A DNA stretch of 64,000 nucleotides from Flagellimonas maritima (GTDB lineage Bacteria > Bacteroidota > Bacteroidia > Flavobacteriales > Flavobacteriaceae): positions 1,545,501 to 1,609,500 of the forward strand of contig NZ_CP030104.1 of assembly GCF_003269425.1 (NCBI RefSeq), written 5' to 3'. Both the position numbers and the translations under genes were made by a program. Numbering within the stretch: position 1 is the first letter of the stretch; every line of letters begins with the position of its first letter. The notes beneath the pieces are model-generated. The model was not told where the DNA came from and did not search any database. It saw only the letters and a list, made by a program, of their open reading frames with translations. Of this stretch, positions 1 through 9,261 are shown in pieces.

Positions 1-290
1 ATGATTTTTCTGCTCGTCTCAACGGTTCAGGCTCTGTCCTGACGGGCGCGGAGGCAGAAAATGCGGTATTTACGACCATTTCCGGCGGACTCGAATACAA
101 TTTCTGGATCACCAAATCCTTCGGATTAATGGCAAAGGGCACCTATCCCGTCTGGGGCGATTATGAACTGAGGGATGGCGATAACGACACATCCTTCGAA
201 TTTGACACCTCCTTTTCGCAGCCTTTCTTTAGTGTTGGCATCAAGTTCAACCCTATCAGGTCTTTACAAAACAGTCTAAAACCTTTATAA
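1..290 (+). CDS. C-terminal end of an outer-membrane beta-barrel-like protein (5' partial)
   Basis: The frame is open from the window edge (first full codon at base 3) to a TAA at 288-290, about 95 residues. The peptide has alternating aromatic/polar beta-strand patterns (GGLEYNFWITKSFGLMAKG, then SFSQPFFSVGIKFNP) as in the last strands of an outer-membrane barrel. The true start lies outside the window, so the family cannot be named. The stop overlaps the next start (TAATG), suggesting translational coupling. Bases 1-1600 look richer in G+C than the rest of the window. Confidence 0.55.
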   Translation, partial: DFSARLNGSGSVLTGAEAENAVFTTISGGLEYNFWITKSFGLMAKGTYPVWGDYELRDGDNDTSFEFDTSFSQPFFSVGIKFNPIRSLQNSLKPL

Positions 291-685
291 TGATGACACA
301 GGCAAAAAAAAGTTTCTGTGGGAATGCTTTCTTAAAAGCGGCTCTCCCTTCCTATTTATTCCCCTTGCTCTCCTCTGCGATACCAGCTTATTTCTTGGAT
401 AAACCGGATTTATTGAAAGCCAGTTATACGACCATTGCGATGCCTTCATTATTCGCCACCGTAATCTGCTTTATCCTGTTATGGCAATTTCAAGAGCGGC
501 AGATTTTTATAATAAATCGTATTGTAATGGCACTTGTTCTGGGCATTACTATGGTGCTGCTAGCGTTAGGTGTCATCTATATTTTTAAATGGGAAACGGG
601 CATTTGGAACATTCTCATTTCTTCCTTCTTGGGTGCCGCCATCGTTGCGATGATGAAACCTTTGACCAAAACTACCATCGCCTAA
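290..685 (+). CDS. Small polytopic membrane protein, unknown function
   Basis: The protein has 131 residues and about four hydrophobic segments (roughly residues 15-36, 45-66, 75-98 and 104-122), so it should be an inner-membrane protein. I recognise no family motif. It starts with ATGATG, whose first A is the last base of the upstream stop, and its TAA overlaps the ATG of the SDR gene in the same way. The three genes therefore look like one translationally coupled unit. The role may be linked to the SDR protein, but that is inference from context only. Confidence 0.65.
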   Translation: MMTQAKKSFCGNAFLKAALPSYLFPLLSSAIPAYFLDKPDLLKASYTTIAMPSLFATVICFILLWQFQERQIFIINRIVMALVLGITMVLLALGVIYIFKWETGIWNILISSFLGAAIVAMMKPLTKTTIA

Positions 686-1596
686 TGGATGTATATAAAA
701 AAACGATCGTCGTCTTTGGCTGTACCGGAACGGTGGGAAAGCCTGTATTAGAAGGCCTGTTGAAAGCGGACTGTTATGTACGCGGTGTACTTCGGAGTCC
801 CGATAGAGCCTATCCCGTATCTCCGCGCGACAACTGCAAACTCACTTATGTAAGTGCTAATTTGGCGGTAGCCGAAGAGATCGAGGCCGCCTGCGCACAC
901 GCCGATGTGGTCTTTTTGCTTACTGCCACGCACCCCGATCAGGTCGCCACGGAAATCAGGATTATAGATGCCTCAAAAAAATGTGGCATACAGCGTATCG
1001 TAAAGCTCTCTGCCCCTATTGTAGAACCTTTGGCTCAGGTCGAAGTGGCGCGTTGGCACCGCAAGATCGAAGAACACCTTGACGAGTCCGCCCTTGAATA
1101 TTGCTGCCTTCGGCCCCGTGCCTTTATGCAGAACTGGGAGAGAAATACCCACACCATACGCAAATTCGGCACCTTCTATGGTGTTATGGAAGATGCCCGG
1201 CGCAACTATATCGATGCCCGGGACGTTGCCGATGTTGCCGTAAACGTACTGCTTCAGGAGGCACCTTTGCCGAGTAGCACCATTGCACTGGACGGCCCAG
1301 AGGCCTTGAGCCACTACGAGATGGCACAGCGTTTATCAAAGGTTACCGGAAGAACCATCACCTATAAAAATATAAGCCGAAGCGACTATTTCAAAATGCT
1401 GACTAAAAGAGCCAAATTACCGCAATGGCTGGCAACGCACATCATAGAACTCGATGAACTGGCCCTGAACATACCAGAGCCTCAAACACATTCCCTCGCC
1501 CCTTTACTGGATAGAAAACCGCGTATTATGGATGCCTATCTACAGGAAAACAAGGCGCTTTTTGCAAGGCAGGCCTTGTTCAAGATGTGGTCGTGA
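685..1596 (+). CDS. NmrA-like / atypical short-chain dehydrogenase (NAD(P)-binding)
   Basis: The protein has 303 residues. An N-terminal Rossmann motif (VVFGCTGTVGKPVLEG, about residues 8-23) is typical of NmrA/TMR-like atypical SDRs, which bind NAD(P)H as oxidoreductases or redox sensors. KLSAP and the YCCLRPRAFMQNW segment match the family core, and LDGPEALSHYEMA is the usual C-terminal block. I chose the ATG at 685 because it overlaps the previous stop (TAATG) and directly precedes the Rossmann strand; the frame is open 32 codons further upstream, but that would run inside the previous gene. The substrate is unknown. Codon use is G+C-rich compared with later genes, which may indicate transfer. 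Confidence 0.85.
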   Translation: MDVYKKTIVVFGCTGTVGKPVLEGLLKADCYVRGVLRSPDRAYPVSPRDNCKLTYVSANLAVAEEIEAACAHADVVFLLTATHPDQVATEIRIIDASKKCGIQRIVKLSAPIVEPLAQVEVARWHRKIEEHLDESALEYCCLRPRAFMQNWERNTHTIRKFGTFYGVMEDARRNYIDARDVADVAVNVLLQEAPLPSSTIALDGPEALSHYEMAQRLSKVTGRTITYKNISRSDYFKMLTKRAKLPQWLATHIIELDELALNIPEPQTHSLAPLLDRKPRIMDAYLQENKALFARQALFKMWS

Positions 1597-1753
1597 AATG
1601 AAATGAGAGATACCACTGTCAAGAAAGCTAGCACTATACTTCTTAAGATACGTCGGTAGCGTATGCATTTTAAAAGCTGTACGGTTTAAAATCATAGTCA
1701 TAGGATGGCTGACAGCTAAACTGAAAAGCACAGATTTTTACCCTCGTTCCTAC

Positions 1754-2773
1754 CTACATTAAGATGTGGTTTGTTGCTGCTATAGGCTCTGGCAAATTTT
1801 CTTCGTCTAGCATATCCCTCAAATCAATTTCTATGGTTCGGCTCAATGCCGCCATCGGGATGTCATTGGGACTGCCCTCAAAAGGGTTTTCTGTAATTTC
1901 GCCTATTTTTTCCATTGTATGGAATACCCAAGAAACCAGTAGGCTAAAGGGGATGGTCATCCACACGAAATTAGCGCCCAGTACATCAAATTCTTTCATC
2001 AAACCAAAAGGCACCAACAGGATAAAGAGCCATACGAAAAAAAGGTTCAACGTTGCGAACTGTCGCGGATACGGGAAGTTTTTAATACGTTCCGACTTGC
2101 CTTGATGACTGTACACATCTAACAATAATGCTTCCATTTCCATATGACGAAAGTCGTCCGTTAGGCCACGCTTTCGTAATTCTTTAAGTGCTTTAGATTG
2201 GTTGGCGATAAGTTGCGTTGCCCTATTCTTTTTGGAAAGAATGTAGCGCAGTTCAGCCGCTTCCAAAAGGGGTTTCAATTCGGCCTCAAGCGAGTTTTCA
2301 AATTCGTGTATCACATATTTTTTTCGATACTCAGCATTGTAATTCTTGTCTAGATTTTCCCATTCCTTTGGCACTCTTAATTGATAACGCAAACAGGTAA
2401 CCCACGCCAAGTGCCTGTAAATTAATTGGGTCTGAATTTTAATTAAAGTTTTGGCATCCACTTTTTCCTCACTATGTAGGTCAGAGATAAAGTCTTTGGA
2501 CATAATGCCCCAAGAACGGCTGGTATTTACAATCATACCCCAAATTTTTCTGGCTTCCCACATACGGTCATAGGTGGCATTATTTTTAAAGCCGATTAAG
2601 AATGCCACAGCTGTACCAATCAGAGCAACAGGCAACCACGGGATGACCATCCATTTCCAGTCCAATAATGCATAAATAGCAGTAGGTATGGTTGCTATGA
2701 CAAGAAACTTTAAAATGTCCCTTCGTGTCCATATCAATACCTCTTTTAATGAAAAGCTTTTTCCTGTATACAT
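1754..2773 (-). CDS. Bestrophin-like chloride channel (UPF0187/RFP-TM family)
   Basis: The protein has 339 residues. The N-terminal arrangement (basic residues, TM helices near 22-40 and 45-65, then GFKNNATYDRMWEARKIWG) is the diagnostic bestrophin pattern; two more membrane segments lie near 230-285. Bacterial homologues form pentameric anion or cation channels in the inner membrane. Its ATG directly abuts the stop of the zinc-finger gene upstream, so it is the last gene of the run that starts at 5124. Its co-transcription with a flavoprotein and a UBP zinc finger is unusual. Confidence 0.85.
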   Translation of the reverse strand: MYTGKSFSLKEVLIWTRRDILKFLVIATIPTAIYALLDWKWMVIPWLPVALIGTAVAFLIGFKNNATYDRMWEARKIWGMIVNTSRSWGIMSKDFISDLHSEEKVDAKTLIKIQTQLIYRHLAWVTCLRYQLRVPKEWENLDKNYNAEYRKKYVIHEFENSLEAELKPLLEAAELRYILSKKNRATQLIANQSKALKELRKRGLTDDFRHMEMEALLLDVYSHQGKSERIKNFPYPRQFATLNLFFVWLFILLVPFGLMKEFDVLGANFVWMTIPFSLLVSWVFHTMEKIGEITENPFEGSPNDIPMAALSRTIEIDLRDMLDEENLPEPIAATNHILM

Positions 2774-3058
2774 TTAGCGCGGTTGTTTGAGGTTCTTCTT
2801 TTGTTGGTGTTCGTAGCACCAAGCAAATTTTGACCAAGGCTTTGGCATATTCGAGATAACTACGGGATGACCGCTTTCGCGGAAGTGCGCACTTGCGTGT
2901 TTATTTTTAGAAGCATCACAGCATAAGACGATTCCGCAGGTCTGGCAGACCCTTAAATGCGTCCATTTATCTTTAGTTTTCACACATTCCTCACAATAGT
3001 CTTTTTTAGAACCCTTTGGCTCTAAGGATTCTAAATGTTTACATAATATTTCTTCCAT
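2774..3058 (-). CDS. UBP-type zinc-finger protein (ubiquitin C-terminus-binding fold)
   Basis: The protein has 94 residues and is a stand-alone ZnF-UBP domain. The full ligand set is visible: C6 and H8, C22/C25, C38/C41, C46/C47, H54, H58 and H64 followed by P, the order seen in the eukaryotic USP/HDAC6 domain that grips a free C-terminal Gly-Gly. Bacterial copies are known next to or fused with thioredoxin-reductase-like flavoproteins, as here. The stop touches the bestrophin start, and the start is 3 bp from the flavoprotein stop. The bacterial ligand is unknown; a role as a peptide-tail or partner-binding module is inference. Confidence 0.85.
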   Translation of the reverse strand: MEEILCKHLESLEPKGSKKDYCEECVKTKDKWTHLRVCQTCGIVLCCDASKNKHASAHFRESGHPVVISNMPKPWSKFAWCYEHQQKKNLKQPR

Positions 3059-3061
3059 CGT

Positions 3062-4333
3062 CTATTTGTGTAAGTTTTCTAAATATTTATGAACGAAAGT
3101 AACAGCCATTGCACCTTCACCAGCCGATGAGGCTACTCGTTTTACGGAACCGTGACGAACATCGCCTGCTGCGAATGAGCCTGGCACGCTAGTTTCCAAG
3201 AAAAATGGTTCGCGTTCCAATTTCCAACAATCCACAAATTTACCGTTGTTTGAAAGGTCTGCACCAGTCATTAAATAACCGCTTTTATCGCGGATGATGT
3301 CAGTATCCTTTGCCCATTCGGTATTCGGAATACCACCGATACAGATGAACAAGCGTTCGGTGTCGTACTCTTCAATGGTGTTTTCTTGAGTTCTTTTAAT
3401 GTGTATGCGTTTTAACTCATTTTCCCCAATGAGTTCTGATACTTCGGAATTATATAAGACTTCAATATTCGGTTTTTCCTCTATTCTTGTAAGCAGGTAA
3501 TGCGATAGGGATTCGGACAAGTTTCCGCTGCGCACGATAAGGGAAACTTTTTTTGCAAATTTTGAAAAATACATCGCTGCCTGTCCCGCCGAGTTCCCGC
3601 CACCCACGATAAATATGTGTTTGTCTTCACAGAGAAATGCTTCGCTCGCACCTGCACCGTAATAAACACCTTTGTTCAGGTATTTTGCTTCGTTTTCTAA
3701 ATTTAATTTGCGGTATTCCACGCCTGTGGCACAGATGTTTGCATTTGCAATCATCATTTCGCCATCTGCCATATTGACGTGAATTTGTTGATTCTTGAAC
3801 TGTGCCTTGACACCTTCTCTTAACATTAATATTTCGACTCCAAATTTAACCGCCTGCTGTCTGGCACGTTCTGCCAAATCTGCTCCTGCAATGCCGTTGG
3901 GAAATCCCATATAGTTTTCGATAAGCGAACTCGTTCCCGCTTGGCCACCTATGGCACTTTTTTCTATTAACACCGTGCGAAGTCCTTCCGAAGCCGCATA
4001 TACGGCAGCGCTTAATCCTGCAGGTCCAGCACCATAAATAGAAAGGTCATACTCCTTGTGTTTAGGTTTCGAAATCCATCCCAGATGTGTTGCCACTTTT
4101 TCAACGTTTGTTTTATACAATAGGGTACCGTCTGGTAATTCTACGATGGGTAAGCGTTCTGCGTCCTCTTTTTTAAGATGCGGTGCATTTTTTAAATCCT
4201 TTAGCGTGTTCAATTCTATCCACTTAAAGGCGACAACACTTCGATTAAGAAAGTCCCGAATTTCATATGCTTTTGCGGAATTTGATTTGCCGTATAGATG
4301 TACAATCTTTGTATTGGTTAAGTTTTCATTCAT
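3062..4333 (-). CDS. Thioredoxin-reductase-like FAD/NAD(P) oxidoreductase with N-terminal glutaredoxin-like domain, lacking redox cysteines
   Basis: The protein has 423 residues. Residues 1-85 look like a glutaredoxin/thioredoxin-fold domain in which the usual CxxC is replaced (GKSNSAKAY). Residues 95-423 follow thioredoxin reductase: FAD site GAGPAG (101-106), IGGQAGTSS, NAD(P) site VGGGNSA (243-249) and a C-terminal FAD motif with GDVRHGS. The TrxR active-site CxxC between the domains is absent (YYGAGASEAF, near 225-233). It should bind FAD and a pyridine nucleotide but cannot do classical dithiol exchange. The start ATG overlaps the dioxygenase stop (ATGA). Confidence 0.85.
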   Translation of the reverse strand: MNENLTNTKIVHLYGKSNSAKAYEIRDFLNRSVVAFKWIELNTLKDLKNAPHLKKEDAERLPIVELPDGTLLYKTNVEKVATHLGWISKPKHKEYDLSIYGAGPAGLSAAVYAASEGLRTVLIEKSAIGGQAGTSSLIENYMGFPNGIAGADLAERARQQAVKFGVEILMLREGVKAQFKNQQIHVNMADGEMMIANANICATGVEYRKLNLENEAKYLNKGVYYGAGASEAFLCEDKHIFIVGGGNSAGQAAMYFSKFAKKVSLIVRSGNLSESLSHYLLTRIEEKPNIEVLYNSEVSELIGENELKRIHIKRTQENTIEEYDTERLFICIGGIPNTEWAKDTDIIRDKSGYLMTGADLSNNGKFVDCWKLEREPFFLETSVPGSFAAGDVRHGSVKRVASSAGEGAMAVTFVHKYLENLHK

Positions 4334-5124
4334 ATTTTTCTGTTTAAGGTCAAGGTGCCTTCAACAGTCGTTCTGTGTAAGGTTCTTTCTTGGTTTGGGT
4401 CTGTTTCTGTGGCTTGATGAAATACCGAATAATTGTCTGAAACCATTAAATCGCCTTCGGCATATTTATGTCGGTACATCACTTCGGGATGGTCTAGAAT
4501 TGTCTGGAAGCTGCCTATCAGTTCCGTTACCTGAGCTTCCTCTTCTTTTTCAAAGCCCGTCAATGAACGTACCAATCCCATATTTAGGTACAGGGCTTTT
4601 TTACCCGTAACGGGATGCTCTATGACAAGGTCGTGCAGTATATTTCCCTCGTGAACCGTTTTTAGTTTATGGGCGATGGGTTTTAAGTGTTTAGGTATTT
4701 TTTTGTATGCTTCGTAGGCATTCGCAAAAAGCGTGTCGCCACCGGTTTTGGGAATTTTTACCAGATGAAACGCAGAAAGCGCGGTCGGCCTTTCCCTAAA
4801 AGACCCATCTTGATGCCAATAAAACCCAACGTTCGTGTAGCCTTGTTGTACATCTGTGGACAGTCTAAAGACCTCAGGATGTTTGGGAAGCTGCGTTGGC
4901 CTAAACGGAAAGGTTTCAAGACCGCCAAAGACTTGCGTAAACCGAACCTGATGCTCTGGTTTCAATGTTTTGCCTTTGACTAAGAGTAGTTGGTAATCCT
5001 TGAGTGCCTCCTTTAGTTCAGAAACCAAAATAGCATCGTAGGTTGCCGTTTCAAGATTGAGGTCTGTTATTATTGCACCGAGATGTGGTGTGAGTTCGGA
5101 AATTTTGAATTTCGTGTATGCCAT
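4330..5124 (-). CDS. TauD/TfdA-family Fe(II)/2-oxoglutarate-dependent dioxygenase
   Basis: The protein has 264 residues. The iron-binding facial triad is visible: H104 and D106 in YWHQDG, and H236 in SVFHQAT. T131 in GGDTLFANA and an Arg near 247-251 would bind 2-oxoglutarate. Family members hydroxylate taurine, alkylsulfates, aryloxyacids or other small substrates; the substrate cannot be read from sequence. It is the first gene of a four-gene minus-strand run and overlaps the flavoprotein gene by 4 bp (ATGA). An AraC regulator lies immediately upstream in the same orientation and is the likely controller. Confidence 0.9.
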   Translation of the reverse strand: MAYTKFKISELTPHLGAIITDLNLETATYDAILVSELKEALKDYQLLLVKGKTLKPEHQVRFTQVFGGLETFPFRPTQLPKHPEVFRLSTDVQQGYTNVGFYWHQDGSFRERPTALSAFHLVKIPKTGGDTLFANAYEAYKKIPKHLKPIAHKLKTVHEGNILHDLVIEHPVTGKKALYLNMGLVRSLTGFEKEEEAQVTELIGSFQTILDHPEVMYRHKYAEGDLMVSDNYSVFHQATETDPNQERTLHRTTVEGTLTLNRKI

Positions 5125-5155
5125 AATCGTCTTACTCTTATTGTTTTATCTTCAA

Positions 5156-5163
5156 CAAAGGTA
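5156..5163 (-). promoter_or_regulatory. Candidate -7 box for the TauD-to-bestrophin operon
   Basis: On the minus strand this reads TACCTTTG, a full match to the Bacteroidota -7 consensus TAnnTTTG, 31 bp before the dioxygenase ATG. No convincing -33 TTTG lies at the right distance, which would suit a promoter that needs an activator such as the adjacent AraC protein. Confidence 0.4.
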
Positions 5164-5215
5164 GTTCTCAAAGCAAGGTGTGGGCTGGCACGATTATTTG
5201 AAAATCCGGTACTTT

Positions 5216-6103
5216 TTACAGGTGTCGACTTCTTTCCTTTCGATATTCAAAAGGGGTCTTGCGGGTGTGCTTTTTGAAAAAGCGTCCAAAATAGGATGGG
5301 TCTTCAAAATTTAGATGATAGGCTACTTCCGAAACGTTTAGATTTGTTTGATATAATAGCACTTTTGCTTCCAGCAACATCATTTCTTGAATCAATGCCC
5401 CTGCCGTTTTGCCTATACTTTTTTTTACGGAGTCGTTCAAATGATTGGGCGTAACATTTAAAATTTCGGCATAGTCCTTTACCGAAAGATTTTGATGAAC
5501 ATGATGGCTTACCAAACATTGATAGGCATAGGCCAGCTGCCCCTTATTAAAGCGTGATCGTGCTTTGTTCGATTGTTTTTCATAAAGTCGTTCCAGTTTT
5601 ATGAGCAATGCCGTGATGTATGAATGAATCAGCAGGTTGCGGTGTTTTTTTTGAACTTCCTCCTCGATTTCAATAGCCTTGAACAATTCTGAAAGTGAAC
5701 GACTTTCGGATTGGGTAAGGGTAAGAAAATGTTGTGCATCCCATTCAAAAAAAGGAAGTTCGTTAAGCCTCAACATACTGCTACCATTGCGTTTGAAAAA
5801 TGCTGCCGTAAAGAATAAGGAAAACCCATCAATATCGCCTGTTGGTGCTGCCCAGTTATTGATAATTCCTGGGCTTGAAAAAATAAGGGTATGTTCTTTT
5901 GCTTCGAACGTCTCCAAATTGGAACTATGACGTACCGAACCTTCGGTGAGCAGCAGAAGGCAGTAGTAAGAACCTCGGTAAGGATGCAATAATTCGTTTT
6001 CGAACCTTGGTTTTTGAATTTTGAAATCAACCGCCTTCTCATCCAATTCTAAGATAGAAGCAATATCGTGGTATGGTGTTGTATTTAGGCTTTTCGAAGT
6101 CAT
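5216..6103 (-). CDS. AraC-family transcriptional regulator
   Basis: The protein has 295 residues. The N-terminal half is a cupin-like sensing domain (PYRGSYYCLLLLTEG). The C-terminal 100 residues form the double helix-turn-helix: first helix pair at LSVKDYAEILNVTPNHLNDSVKK, second at NVSEVAYHLNFEDPSYFGRFFKK, ending TPFEYRK. It binds DNA in the cytoplasm. It is 91 bp upstream of and co-oriented with the dioxygenase operon, so it probably activates that operon; the effector may be the dioxygenase substrate (inference). Confidence 0.9.
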   Translation of the reverse strand: MTSKSLNTTPYHDIASILELDEKAVDFKIQKPRFENELLHPYRGSYYCLLLLTEGSVRHSSNLETFEAKEHTLIFSSPGIINNWAAPTGDIDGFSLFFTAAFFKRNGSSMLRLNELPFFEWDAQHFLTLTQSESRSLSELFKAIEIEEEVQKKHRNLLIHSYITALLIKLERLYEKQSNKARSRFNKGQLAYAYQCLVSHHVHQNLSVKDYAEILNVTPNHLNDSVKKSIGKTAGALIQEMMLLEAKVLLYQTNLNVSEVAYHLNFEDPSYFGRFFKKHTRKTPFEYRKERSRHL

Positions 6104-6207
6104 TCATTATTTATCTCTTAAAAGGTAGCTTTAATTAATTGTTATCGTTTAGATTAAATGAATTAAATTAGAAATGTAGGTCTTAAGCCTTCGTAAGAAT
6201 TAATGAT

Positions 6208-6227
6208 GTATAGTTGTGCAACTACAC
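6208..6227. promoter_or_regulatory. Imperfect dyad, possible operator of the AraC gene
   Basis: GTATAGTTGTGCAACTACAC: arms TAGTTG/CAACTA with a 2-nt centre, extended by two more pairs after one mismatch. It lies about 105 bp upstream of the AraC start, where a regulator could bind. The function is not known. Confidence 0.3.
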
Positions 6228-6347
6228 CTTTATTAGTTAGTGCCTAGCATTTCAATAATCTCTTACACATAGAAATAAATTAACTTGAGACGTTTCTTTG
6301 ATATTAATTGTTCATATACTTAGACAATGAATTATTCGTTGTTAAAA

Positions 6348-6473
6348 TCAATTATTCATCTCAAATGCTGTAGTATCTAGTTCTGGGTTAAGGATAACTT
6401 CTTTTACGGTTATTGTGCCGCATCCCATAGTATGAGAAAAAGGAAAGACTTGGTATAAATTAAAATCACAATA
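6348..6473 (-). pseudogene. Possible 3' remnant of a lost gene
   Basis: A minus-strand frame is open from just after a TAG to a TGA at 6348-6350. Its peptide has natural-looking composition (QVFPFSHTMGCGTITVKEV then ILNPELDTTAFEMNN) unlike the surrounding AT-rich noise. An internal ATG at 6426-6428 would give only 26 residues. It is more likely a degraded gene end than a functional peptide. No family recognised. Confidence 0.25.
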
Positions 6474-6547
6474 CTACGCTGACTTAAATCTGCGAATTAT
6501 TAAAATTAAGCGATTCGTTTACTTATAAGCCTCCACATCTGTAAACC

Positions 6548-6567
6548 TTACCTAATCCGCCTCTTAA
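6548..6567 (+). repeat. 20-bp direct repeat, left copy
   Basis: TTACCTAATCCGCCTCTTAA. It differs by one base from the copy at 11218-11237 in the same orientation. The pair brackets the DUF5916/NTF2/LytS/LytTR module. Confidence 0.6.
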
Positions 6568-6611
6568 ACTACTTAAGAAACTCTTATTTTATCTCACTTT
6601 TACTAAATAAT

Positions 6612-8771
6612 TTAAAAATCCATCCTGTAGTTCATTTTAAACGCCACACCCCAGTTTGTTCTCTCAATGTCTTGAGTATAATTATCAGTAACAACCAGAT
6701 AAATATAGGATAGCGGCTTATATTCCCACTGCAGACGACTGTTGATATTAAAATTATCTGCCTGGGTATTGTATTGGATATAAGTGGTCCAGTTTAAGCG
6801 TGTATTAAAAAATACTTCGCCCGTAAACCGTGCCAAATGAAACGTTTCTTCACCAAGATTATCTAAATCGATGTTGTTTAAGTCGTATGAGAGTATAAAA
6901 TTAGCAAAAGGCAAAAACTGATAATTTGTATATAGACTCGCGGTCGTTCGTTTACCACTATAATATTCACCGTGCTGAAGACTGGCCTGATATATAAAAT
7001 TTTGATTATTTGCTGAGTTATATCCAACCTTTAAGCTTCCAAAATCATAGCGGTCGGGTTGTAATGGATTTCCGTTGCCCAATGGGTCAAAACCGTATTT
7101 TAAATCAATGTCGTCATAGCGTAAAACATAATAGATTGCCGATAAGTCTTTAAAAAATAATGCAGAATTCAAAAAATGAGAAGACTGGTTAAAATTCCCT
7201 TGTTCGTCAAGGTAAGTATCATTGCTGTAATTTAGTATCCTAAATGAGTTTAATGACTGTGATGAATCATAAAACTTTTCATATTCAAACCCAGCAGAAG
7301 CCTGTGTATAGCCTTCTCTAACCACCTCGTCATTTACTGCATCAAAGTTGAAAAGCCTTGGTGTAAAGCCAACATCAGCAATGTAGTTTTTCCCTATGTT
7401 TCGCACAGACGCATTCCAGCCCAGACCTCTTCGATTGTACCAGATTCCTGCATTATAAAAGCTGTTCTTATCAGTAATGCCGTCTGAAAAGCTTTTGGCG
7501 TAATTGGCCAATCCAATCCATTTGTTATCATTAGATTTATAGTTTATATTAAGGCCAGTTACCCTGTTGTAATCTTCCTTAAGTTCAAATCCATCAGTTT
7601 CTTGTCTATTAATCAAAAACCCGGTTGTAGAGAAATTATTGGTTAATTGCTGTTCTACAACCAAAGCGGCATAATTTTGAGATGGGATATCTTGCTCACT
7701 GTCGGTTTGTACATCAAGAAAACCTATTCTTGTCTTTTTTGTAAGGTTTCCAGACAGTTTTAAACCAAATTGAATATCCGTATCGGCCCCAATACGCCTA
7801 GAATAAAATGGATTTACGTCACCGACACCAAGATTAGAAAATAAATCGGCATTTTCTAAAAAGAAGTTACGCTGTTCAGGGAAAAATATGTCAAAACGCG
7901 TGAGATTAGTGACCTGCTGGTCCACATCAATTTGAGAAAAATCTGGGTTTATAGTAGCATCAAGTTTTAGCGATGATGTTAAGTTATACTGCACATCCAA
8001 GCTTGGTTGAAAAATTGTAGATTCTGAATCGTTTAAAACATCTTGAGAAGAATTAACCGTCACCGAAGGTGTTACCGCAAAACGAGATGGGGATATGTCT
8101 GGAAGCTGCTCAAAACGAAATGGTCTTGTAAATCTAAGGTCATACAATCTGTAGTTACGTTTTACATTGGTAAGTATTGACCAAGCATTCTTTTTAATAT
8201 CTCGCACATACATTTGTATGCCTATGGTTGGATTATCCACATCATAGTTTAGTGCCTTTAACGGAATTGCCATTTCATACATTTTTAGATTGCCATCTGC
8301 TGTTGCGGCAGCTTTCCATACTGCATTCCAACTTAAGCTAAAACCATAGCCTTCGTTTATACGTTCCACAAGACCATCTACCTGTGTTCCATATCCGTTG
8401 ACGGCAAAATAAAATGCACTTTGTTTTTGATTTTGTGTATCAAGAACTAATATAAAAGAATCACTAATACCAATACTTACATCGCGCTTTAAGGAGCTTG
8501 TTTGTATTTTGGGCTCAGTATCTTCATAAATAGCACTAACATAAAGAAACTCATCATCAGTAAACAGCCTTACCCGAGTTTGTTGTTCGGCCAGTCCTTC
8601 ATCAGTAGGCAAATAATTATAGAAACCTGTTATCTCTGGTAAGGTTTCCCAAATAGGTTCATTTGGTTTCCCATCAACATTAATTTCGCTTTCTGAATAG
8701 CCAATTATTTCTGTTTGTCCTTGTGAAAAAAAAGGTGCTAATAGCACAAAAGAAAAGAATACTCTTCTCAT
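6612..8771 (-). CDS. DUF5916 outer-membrane protein with N-terminal CBM9-like domain
   Basis: The protein has 719 residues. A signal peptide (about 1-19, ending FFSQGQ) precedes a carbohydrate-binding family-9-like domain (INVDGKPNEPIWETLP; DDEFLYVSAIYEDTEP; about 25-215). The rest (about 230-719) is a DUF5916 barrel, including FFPEQRNFFLENADLFS and many alternating beta strands, and ends MNYRMDF with a terminal aromatic typical of barrel proteins. It likely sits in the outer membrane; the function is unproven (sometimes called hydrolase). It overlaps the upstream NTF2-like gene by 4 bp (ATGA) and is divergent from a LytS/LytTR pair that may control it. Confidence 0.85.
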   Translation of the reverse strand: MRRVFFSFVLLAPFFSQGQTEIIGYSESEINVDGKPNEPIWETLPEITGFYNYLPTDEGLAEQQTRVRLFTDDEFLYVSAIYEDTEPKIQTSSLKRDVSIGISDSFILVLDTQNQKQSAFYFAVNGYGTQVDGLVERINEGYGFSLSWNAVWKAAATADGNLKMYEMAIPLKALNYDVDNPTIGIQMYVRDIKKNAWSILTNVKRNYRLYDLRFTRPFRFEQLPDISPSRFAVTPSVTVNSSQDVLNDSESTIFQPSLDVQYNLTSSLKLDATINPDFSQIDVDQQVTNLTRFDIFFPEQRNFFLENADLFSNLGVGDVNPFYSRRIGADTDIQFGLKLSGNLTKKTRIGFLDVQTDSEQDIPSQNYAALVVEQQLTNNFSTTGFLINRQETDGFELKEDYNRVTGLNINYKSNDNKWIGLANYAKSFSDGITDKNSFYNAGIWYNRRGLGWNASVRNIGKNYIADVGFTPRLFNFDAVNDEVVREGYTQASAGFEYEKFYDSSQSLNSFRILNYSNDTYLDEQGNFNQSSHFLNSALFFKDLSAIYYVLRYDDIDLKYGFDPLGNGNPLQPDRYDFGSLKVGYNSANNQNFIYQASLQHGEYYSGKRTTASLYTNYQFLPFANFILSYDLNNIDLDNLGEETFHLARFTGEVFFNTRLNWTTYIQYNTQADNFNINSRLQWEYKPLSYIYLVVTDNYTQDIERTNWGVAFKMNYRMDF

Positions 8772-9202
8772 TCGTTTTCCTCTTTTTTAACGAATGCGTA
8801 AACCTTACTTACAATCTTCCAGTTTCCATCAATTTTCAATAATGTAAAATAGTCTGCATTGAATCCTTTAGGGTATTCGGTTTCCAGTTTGGCCATGGCC
8901 GCGTTACCTGCAATATTTATAAAAGATATTCTGTGGTTTCGTTCTTTTTGTTGGTCAGCATTTTCTTGGGATTTAAATACATCAAGACAGTTATACTCTC
9001 GGTATTCGTTAGCTTTTAAGGAAAATGTTTTCATTGTAGTACCTTCGTGAAAGATACCTTCCAACATTTTGTAGTTTCTGGTATTATCACCTACCACATA
9101 GGTTTTTATAACGCTTTCAATAGTCTTGTAATCGGATTCCTGTGCTGTATTTTTTGTTGACCATAGCAATAAGAGGCTAAAAATTAAAATTCCTTTTTTC
9201 AT
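8768..9202 (-). CDS. Secreted NTF2-like / putative lumazine-binding-family protein
   Basis: The protein has 144 residues from the ATG at 9202, which begins a clear signal peptide (MKKGILIFSLLLLWSTKNTAQ); an upstream in-frame start eight codons earlier would spoil that signal. The mature part shows the NTF2-like cone fold: IESVIKTYVVGDNTRNYKML, FHEGTTMKTF, then GNAAMAKLETEYP and LLKIDGNWKIVSKVY. This matches the Lumazine_bd_2/SnoaL-like group, usually of unknown function. It is translationally coupled (ATGA) to the DUF5916 barrel gene, suggesting a shared envelope role. Confidence 0.8.
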   Translation of the reverse strand: MKKGILIFSLLLLWSTKNTAQESDYKTIESVIKTYVVGDNTRNYKMLEGIFHEGTTMKTFSLKANEYREYNCLDVFKSQENADQQKERNHRISFINIAGNAAMAKLETEYPKGFNADYFTLLKIDGNWKIVSKVYAFVKKEENE

Positions 9203-9261
9203 TGTTTTGAAGTTTTGATTTCCCACAAATCTATAGGAACAGAAAGTGCGTTTTTTGATAA

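Follow-up and report, generated by a model that had tools for sequence, protein, structure and literature searches.

A UBP-type zinc finger and a cysteine-less thioredoxin reductase-like flavoprotein recur together beside bacterial ion-flux proteins

Introduction

What might a zinc finger of the UBP type (zf-UBP), a fold that in eukaryotes is known to recognize the tails of ubiquitin, be doing between a flavoprotein and a channel in a flavobacterium? The question is raised by a 64,000-nucleotide stretch of the Flagellimonas maritima genome (contig NZ_CP030104.1, positions 1,545,501 to 1,609,500; hereafter, the window), in which five minus-strand genes at positions 1754–6103 encode, in gene order, an AraC-family regulator, a TauD/TfdA-family dioxygenase, a thioredoxin reductase (TrxR)-like flavoprotein (TrxRL), a UBP finger, and a bestrophin-family channel. 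An initial annotation had read the cluster as a redox or stress response unit with a tail-binding partner. Here we report that UBP and TrxRL genes recur as neighbors and that ion-flux proteins, overlooked in that annotation, are their recurring third partner, and we propose how the three might work together.

Results

The UBP gene (2774–3058, minus strand, 94 aa; zf-UBP match at 1.1e-10, 42.0 bits versus a cut-off of 22.7) lies 3 bp from the gene for a short-form TrxRL (3062–4333, minus strand; PF07992, Pyr_redox_2, 1e-34) and is joined without a gap (TAAATG, 0 bp) to the bestrophin gene (1754–2773, minus strand, 339 aa; PF25539, Bestrophin_2, 1.2e-49). In a named UBP set made up of the top 80 loci out of 596 or more, with 81 UBP genes, TrxRL is found no more than 500 bp from UBP in 42 cases; within 4 kb, the 81 genes are accompanied by TrxRL 43 times, by a histidine kinase 20 times, by a Kef-type protein 6 times, and by a bestrophin 5 times. 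In a phylum sample, UBP occurs in 33 of 296 genomes at 35 places, of which 32 were fetched (omitting the window copy and two under the cut-off) and 31 UBP genes passed the UBP profile. Within 4 kb of these 31 genes we counted 22 TrxRL, 19 kinases, 1 bestrophin, and 20 Kef-type proteins (4 fused to UBP), the last by a profile whose threshold was lowered after a first tally had missed adjacent antiporters; the four fused proteins and the adjacent antiporters of L140, L151, and L153 were Pfam-checked, and the other 13 were called by profile only. Six of the 31 have none of the four partners. In a family sample of 299 genomes (the family taken, from the named loci most similar to it, to be Flavobacteriaceae), TrxRL is present in 18 genomes (E ≤ 1e-80) and UBP in 13, with both in 12, a co-occurrence with a hypergeometric probability of 2.8e-16 if kinship is ignored. 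The statement in the initial annotation that UBP fingers accompany such flavoproteins in some bacteria is thus borne out, and the recurrent link on which it had staked its case is there for UBP, TrxRL, and bestrophin, which do recur together.

The ion-flux partner takes more than one form. UBP is the C-terminal domain of proteins with Na_H_Exchanger and TrkA_N domains at L139, L052, L142, L144, and L150, and of Na_H_Exchanger proteins at L064 and L078 that lack a TrkA_N match and carry UBP in its place (all by Pfam). As separate genes, the usual order in one other family (f23) is Kef-UBP-kinase-TrxRL; the antiporters Pfam-checked here are those of L140, L151, and L153. At flavobacterial loci (L037, L047, L079, L083, L169, L176, L178, and L179), the bestrophin gene is divergent from UBP-TrxRL; at a further one, L184, TrxRL and UBP lie on different strands, and at L215 bestrophin and UBP are found with no TrxRL in the stretch. 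Among the matches listed, a bestrophin lies within 300 bp of UBP (profile match bounds) at 7 of 14 family-sample UBP genes, both F. maritima copies among the 7, and 119 of the 299 genomes hold some bestrophin at E ≤ 1e-10.

The F. maritima genome itself holds two bestrophin-UBP-TrxRL units in different arrangements, the one in the window and the one at L169, whose TrxRL carries a domain of the cyclic nucleotide (cNMP) type; a congener in the family sample (G513) has the L169-type unit only. The window bestrophin, which is matched by solved bacterial bestrophins (e.g., 5x87, 8.9e-23), is 52% identical to that of L084 (Flavihumibacter), 42% to that of L169, and 25% to that of L039 (Fulvivirga aurantia), where the bestrophin overlaps the UBP frame. 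Judged by these sequences, and by a tree whose output carries no support values, bestrophins of three apparently distant lineages (window, L169, and L039), two of them within this genome, are joined to UBP.

TrxRL aligns with thioredoxin reductases over residues ~90–423 and shares with them and with AhpF the FAD and NAD(P) Rossmann core; it presumably binds both cofactors. Unlike thioredoxin reductase, it has no CxxC at the TrxR site, where the window protein reads YYGAGASEA; the motif is absent from all 53 aligned TrxRL, including short forms of cyanobacteria, Burkholderiaceae, and Rhodococcus, in agreement with the initial description of the flavoprotein as free of redox cysteines. A CxxC elsewhere is seen in 1 of 89 TrxRL frames (L075, residue 426 of 553, off the TrxR site). 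The N-terminal region of AhpF has a Trx fold, and its redox cysteines are found in both the N-terminal domain and the core; the window TrxRL has neither set, the N-terminal motif, GKSNSAKA, being Cys-free as well. In an AlphaFold2 model (pLDDT 76.8, parts <50), residues 1–85 follow a beta-alpha-beta-alpha-beta-beta-alpha order, and this segment may be a Trx/Grx-fold domain without its cysteines. That call is based on secondary-structure order and on an alignment to intact AhpF (1hyu), which has the best Foldseek E-value and spans 435 columns but superposes poorly as a whole (TMq 0.37, rmsd 17.7); the VIA rows span model residues 89–423.

The 89 TrxRL frames, from 89 fetched loci, comprise 49 of receiver type, 31 of cNMP type, and 9 short ones (2 of these partial), types that were assigned from phmmer comparison with one or two example sequences; the Pfam cNMP match of the L082 protein falls just under its cut-off. 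A receiver or cNMP-like domain is thus present in 80 of the 89, and the short window protein has neither. A histidine kinase of the cNMP type is found at 43 of 51 receiver-type loci (a number that includes two partial frames), and a histidine kinase is found at none of the 31 cNMP-type loci. Because the CxxC is missing, input domains are present, and the kinase tracks the receiver type, TrxRL looks like a regulated signaling protein rather than a housekeeping reductase. A short TrxRL is also found on a Gloeocapsa conjugative plasmid (L131, 4700–9668), where it follows genes for a thioredoxin-domain protein and DsbA and is followed by a short gene annotated as AraC; no UBP was found in that stretch.

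Does the UBP finger read a Gly-Gly tail, as its eukaryotic relatives do? Its zinc-ligand Cys and His residues are invariant across 40 aligned bacterial UBPs, the full ligand set assigned to it earlier is present, and fold and ligands match the ubiquitin-binding fingers of HDAC6 and USP proteins. Trp32 is likewise invariant, and Trp80 and Tyr82 are kept in 33 and 35 of the 40. R1155 of HDAC6 is described as touching the carboxylate of ubiquitin-mimicking ligands (PMC10424181). At the position aligned to it, a comparison of sequences rather than of pocket geometry, the 40 bacterial UBPs have Ser 27 times, Ala 7, Asp 4, and Phe and Asn once each, and never Arg. Nor do the ubiquitin (PF00240) and Prok-JAB (PF14464) models match anything in the genome at E ≤ 0.01, and both results weaken the earlier suggestion of a tail-binding partner. 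The exposed Gly-Gly tails that the initial annotation had suggested looking for are absent from the C termini of the TrxRL (89), bestrophin (14), Kef (27), kinase (43), and UBP (120) frames at the fetched loci, some of which are partial; the one GG end found belongs to the sole ThiS-family match in the genome, a MoaD-like protein encoded at an unlinked locus beside a MoaA-like gene (read from sequence). The invariant His34-Leu35-Arg36 of the bacterial fingers could even so bind a carboxylate of some kind. A bacterial UBP-type zinc finger of known structure (PDB 2ida, RPA1320) is catalogued as a structural-genomics hypothetical protein with no function stated.

Several further candidates were set aside. 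The C-terminal NILY of bestrophin is no docking tail for UBP, since bestrophins without a nearby UBP carry it too. The long UBP frames of L095 (6387–8270) and L054 (844–2523) appear to be frame artefacts rather than fusions, overlapping a TrxRL frame (6304–7971) and the frame of another recurrent family, respectively, and that of L137 was taken as an artefact likewise. Long frames with UBP near the C terminus also occur at L048 (7020–8264; no other Pfam domain) and L102 (3915–8198), and either may be an artefact of GC-rich sequence.

UBP-TrxRL pairs also turn up among stress genes. On the Rhodococcus plasmid pDK2 (L138, 1–7357) the order is dnaK-grpE-J domain-cbpM-clpB-trxA-UBP-TrxRL, and on plasmid pI of Paraburkholderia dioscoreae (L135, 3766–12649) TrxRL-UBP adjoin a Clp ATPase gene, with Hsp20, HdeD, and PsiE-family genes nearby; a second locus resembles this island in order, with fewer genes named. 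EgtD-like, EgtB-like, and OsmC genes lie within 4 kb of 8, 6, and 6, respectively, of the 81 UBP genes of the named set. The ergothioneine-type (EgtB/EgtD-like) genes near UBP are at L040, L053, L086, L096, L103, and L159, called by Pfam at L159 (a histidine-specific methyltransferase, PF10017, and a DinB_2 plus FGE-sulfatase protein) and by profile only at the other five. OsmC-family genes are beside or near UBP at four Hymenobacter loci and in one phylum-sample genome (L046, L088, L091, L105, and L149; Pfam-checked at L046 and L149). The redox or stress flavor of the initial reading is supported, and the tail-binding part of it is weakened.

The remaining two genes of the cluster are of another kind. 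The AraC-family gene (5216–6103, minus strand, 295 aa; PF12833, HTH_18, 6.5e-20) lies 91 bp upstream of that for the TauD/TfdA-family Fe(II)/2-oxoglutarate dioxygenase (4330–5124, minus strand, 264 aa; PF02668, 1.9e-45), which overlaps the TrxRL gene by ATGA. All five genes are where the initial annotation had placed them, and the nearly gapless run from TauD to bestrophin was reproduced from the DNA; these four genes would form one transcription unit, of which AraC is probably the local regulator. The dioxygenase has the HxD...H metal triad, with HxD at His104-x-Asp106 and a later His236, which we take to be the third ligand. Nothing matched TauD at E ≤ 1e-50 among the remaining 298 family-sample genomes or among 246 genomes of a class sample that partly overlaps the family sample. 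Outside the samples, relatives in Aquimarina algiphila (52%), Winogradskyella (48%), and Saonia (also within 48–52%) were seen, and others, at 76–78%, may lie on contigs shared with TrxRL/UBP relatives: equal contig sizes, the sole criterion here, suggest that TauD is linked to TrxRL and UBP in one further organism (48305; P0001, P0012, and P0133) and to TrxRL in another (5734; P0016 and P0134). Neither TauD nor AraC belongs to the recurrent UBP-TrxRL unit, contrary to their earlier inclusion in one linked unit, and whatever role TauD has in the unit at this locus is something we infer.

Scans for signals gave little. The pattern TTTG-N17-23-TANNTTTG, which we take to be the Bacteroidetes-type promoter, does not occur in the cluster and is not enriched in the window, with 5 matches versus 5.7 expected, and between positions 1500 and 6700 neither sigma-70-like promoters (8 versus 12.4 in shuffles) nor terminators (5 versus 4.6) rise above shuffled sequence. 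The cluster has a GC content of 0.413, whereas 4350-bp stretches of the window average 0.381 (sd 0.018); since a 16-kb stretch lying mostly upstream of the cluster (L199) is also high, at 0.443, GC content does not decide whether the cluster was acquired horizontally. The Pfam scan took in nine window proteins, within 290–9226. Upstream of AraC on the same strand (6612–9226) are genes for a DUF5916/CBM9-type protein and a lumazine-binding-like (PF12893) protein, and an NmrA-like NAD(P)-binding protein (Pfam) is encoded at 589–1596, convergent with the cluster.

Discussion

The recurrence of these genes suggests a three-part signaling and transport unit that combines TrxRL and the UBP finger with an ion-flux protein, which at this locus is a bestrophin. 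In the reading that we favor, which we consider quite possible but stop short of calling probable, TrxRL and UBP would form a redox- or stress-input module that controls the transporter. TrxRL would report redox or electrophile stress, to which a phospho-receiver or cNMP-type signal may be added in other genomes; UBP would be the coupling or docking piece between TrxRL and the transporter; and the output would be altered bestrophin gating, changing ion conductance and hence membrane potential or cytoplasmic pH. The AraC regulator and the TauD-type oxygenase would then go with the second of the two copies in this genome, one whose gene order has been rearranged. Physical contact, gating, and the stress signal, that is, every step past linkage and fusion, we infer.

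The action of TrxRL and UBP on bestrophin is modeled on that of the oxidoreductase KefF on the K+/H+ antiporter KefC: KefF is described as an ancillary subunit that is needed for full KefC activity, is encoded next to KefC, and has zinc at its interface with KefC (PMC10224563). In the KefC/KefF and KefB/KefG potassium efflux systems, too, an oxidoreductase gene is found next to that of an ion transporter, which the ancillary protein activates, and elsewhere UBP-TrxRL sit beside antiporters of the Kef type or UBP forms a single protein with them. The window cluster differs from the Kef systems in having a bestrophin as its flux protein, a TrxR/AhpF-like flavoprotein in place of a quinone reductase of the KefF type, and a UBP finger in addition; the CPA2 antiporter with a KTN domain that marks a Kef system is absent from the cluster, Kef-type proteins being seen only at the loci of relatives.

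How does this proposal fare against rival accounts? The redox protein, finger, oxygenase, and channel might be co-regulated because each is of use when the cell meets one kind of stress, oxidative or electrophile, without forming a single machine, as the chaperone islands of the Rhodococcus and Paraburkholderia plasmids and the Egt-like and OsmC genes near UBP would have it; we regard this as unlikely, though not far-fetched, and favor a wired signaling unit because UBP is fused to antiporters and the histidine kinase pairs with receiver-type and not with cNMP-type TrxRL. The ATGA overlap between TauD and TrxRL, the HxD motif retained in TauD, and the linkage suggested in two other organisms would also suit a small-molecule pathway, in which TauD and then TrxRL act on a substrate such as a sulfonate, bestrophin exports the anionic product, and AraC senses the substrate; such a pathway leaves the zinc finger without a role, and TauD has no match at E ≤ 1e-50 in the other sampled genomes while TrxRL-UBP is widespread, and we find it improbable. 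Least credible, in our estimate, is the original idea that UBP captures a ubiquitin-like protein by its C-terminal Gly-Gly tail and brings it to the flavoprotein: the intact fold and ligands and the conserved aromatic residues speak for it, and the lack of Arg in all 40 fingers, of ubiquitin or Prok-JAB matches, and of any linked GG tail speaks against it.

A number of observations weigh against the unit that we propose. In the named set, 36 of the 81 UBP genes have no TrxRL, Kef, bestrophin, or kinase within 4 kb, and few have Kef or bestrophin, so UBP fingers occur in other settings as well. Six of the 18 family-sample genomes with TrxRL lack a UBP match at threshold; of seven full short-form TrxRL loci outside the window, two lack UBP, and none has a bestrophin or Kef gene within 5 kb. 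Many of the counted genomes are related, so that the counts are not independent. Bestrophin and an abhydrolase form a flavobacterial pair that occurs also without UBP (in 20 hand-picked bestrophin loci, L215 included, an abhydrolase is present at 14 and UBP at 1), and because the pair mostly lacks UBP, the divergent bestrophin-UBP layout could be a single ancestral insertion kept by descent.

The nearest parallel in a stress setting is the transmissible locus of stress tolerance (tLST), which gives heat and chlorine tolerance and whose KefB protects when chlorine is present at alkaline pH (PMC8290217). The Paraburkholderia plasmid, where TrxRL-UBP has genes for a Clp ATPase, Hsp20, and HdeD as neighbors, resembles the tLST, which itself includes KefB; unlike the UBP unit, the tLST is treated in the main text of that review without mention of zinc (PMC8290217). 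The window cluster is not of this type, no Clp or Hsp20 match of the dna-hsp20-clpG core of the tLST or locus of heat resistance (LHR) being found in the nine window proteins scanned. The component families are known, and by title or abstract we found no description of the UBP-TrxRL-transporter combination in the open-licence PubMed Central literature.

A wider form of the proposed unit, which we hold to be doubtful, would be a switch of ion flux, gated by redox state or by a signal and widespread among bacteria: a TrxRL without its cysteines and with a receiver, a cNMP-type, or no input domain would act via UBP on exchangeable Kef or bestrophin transporters, and UBP would read a non-ubiquitin carboxylate, e.g., that of a small thiol-peptide or a protein C terminus. 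If the proposed unit is real, the UBP fold would have another role, in a group of bacterial fingers tied to an altered flavoprotein and to ion transporters. Such a group would suggest a new way of coupling redox state to membrane ion flow, and the many proteins now named just "UBP-type zinc finger" or "FAD-dependent oxidoreductase" would gain a testable context.

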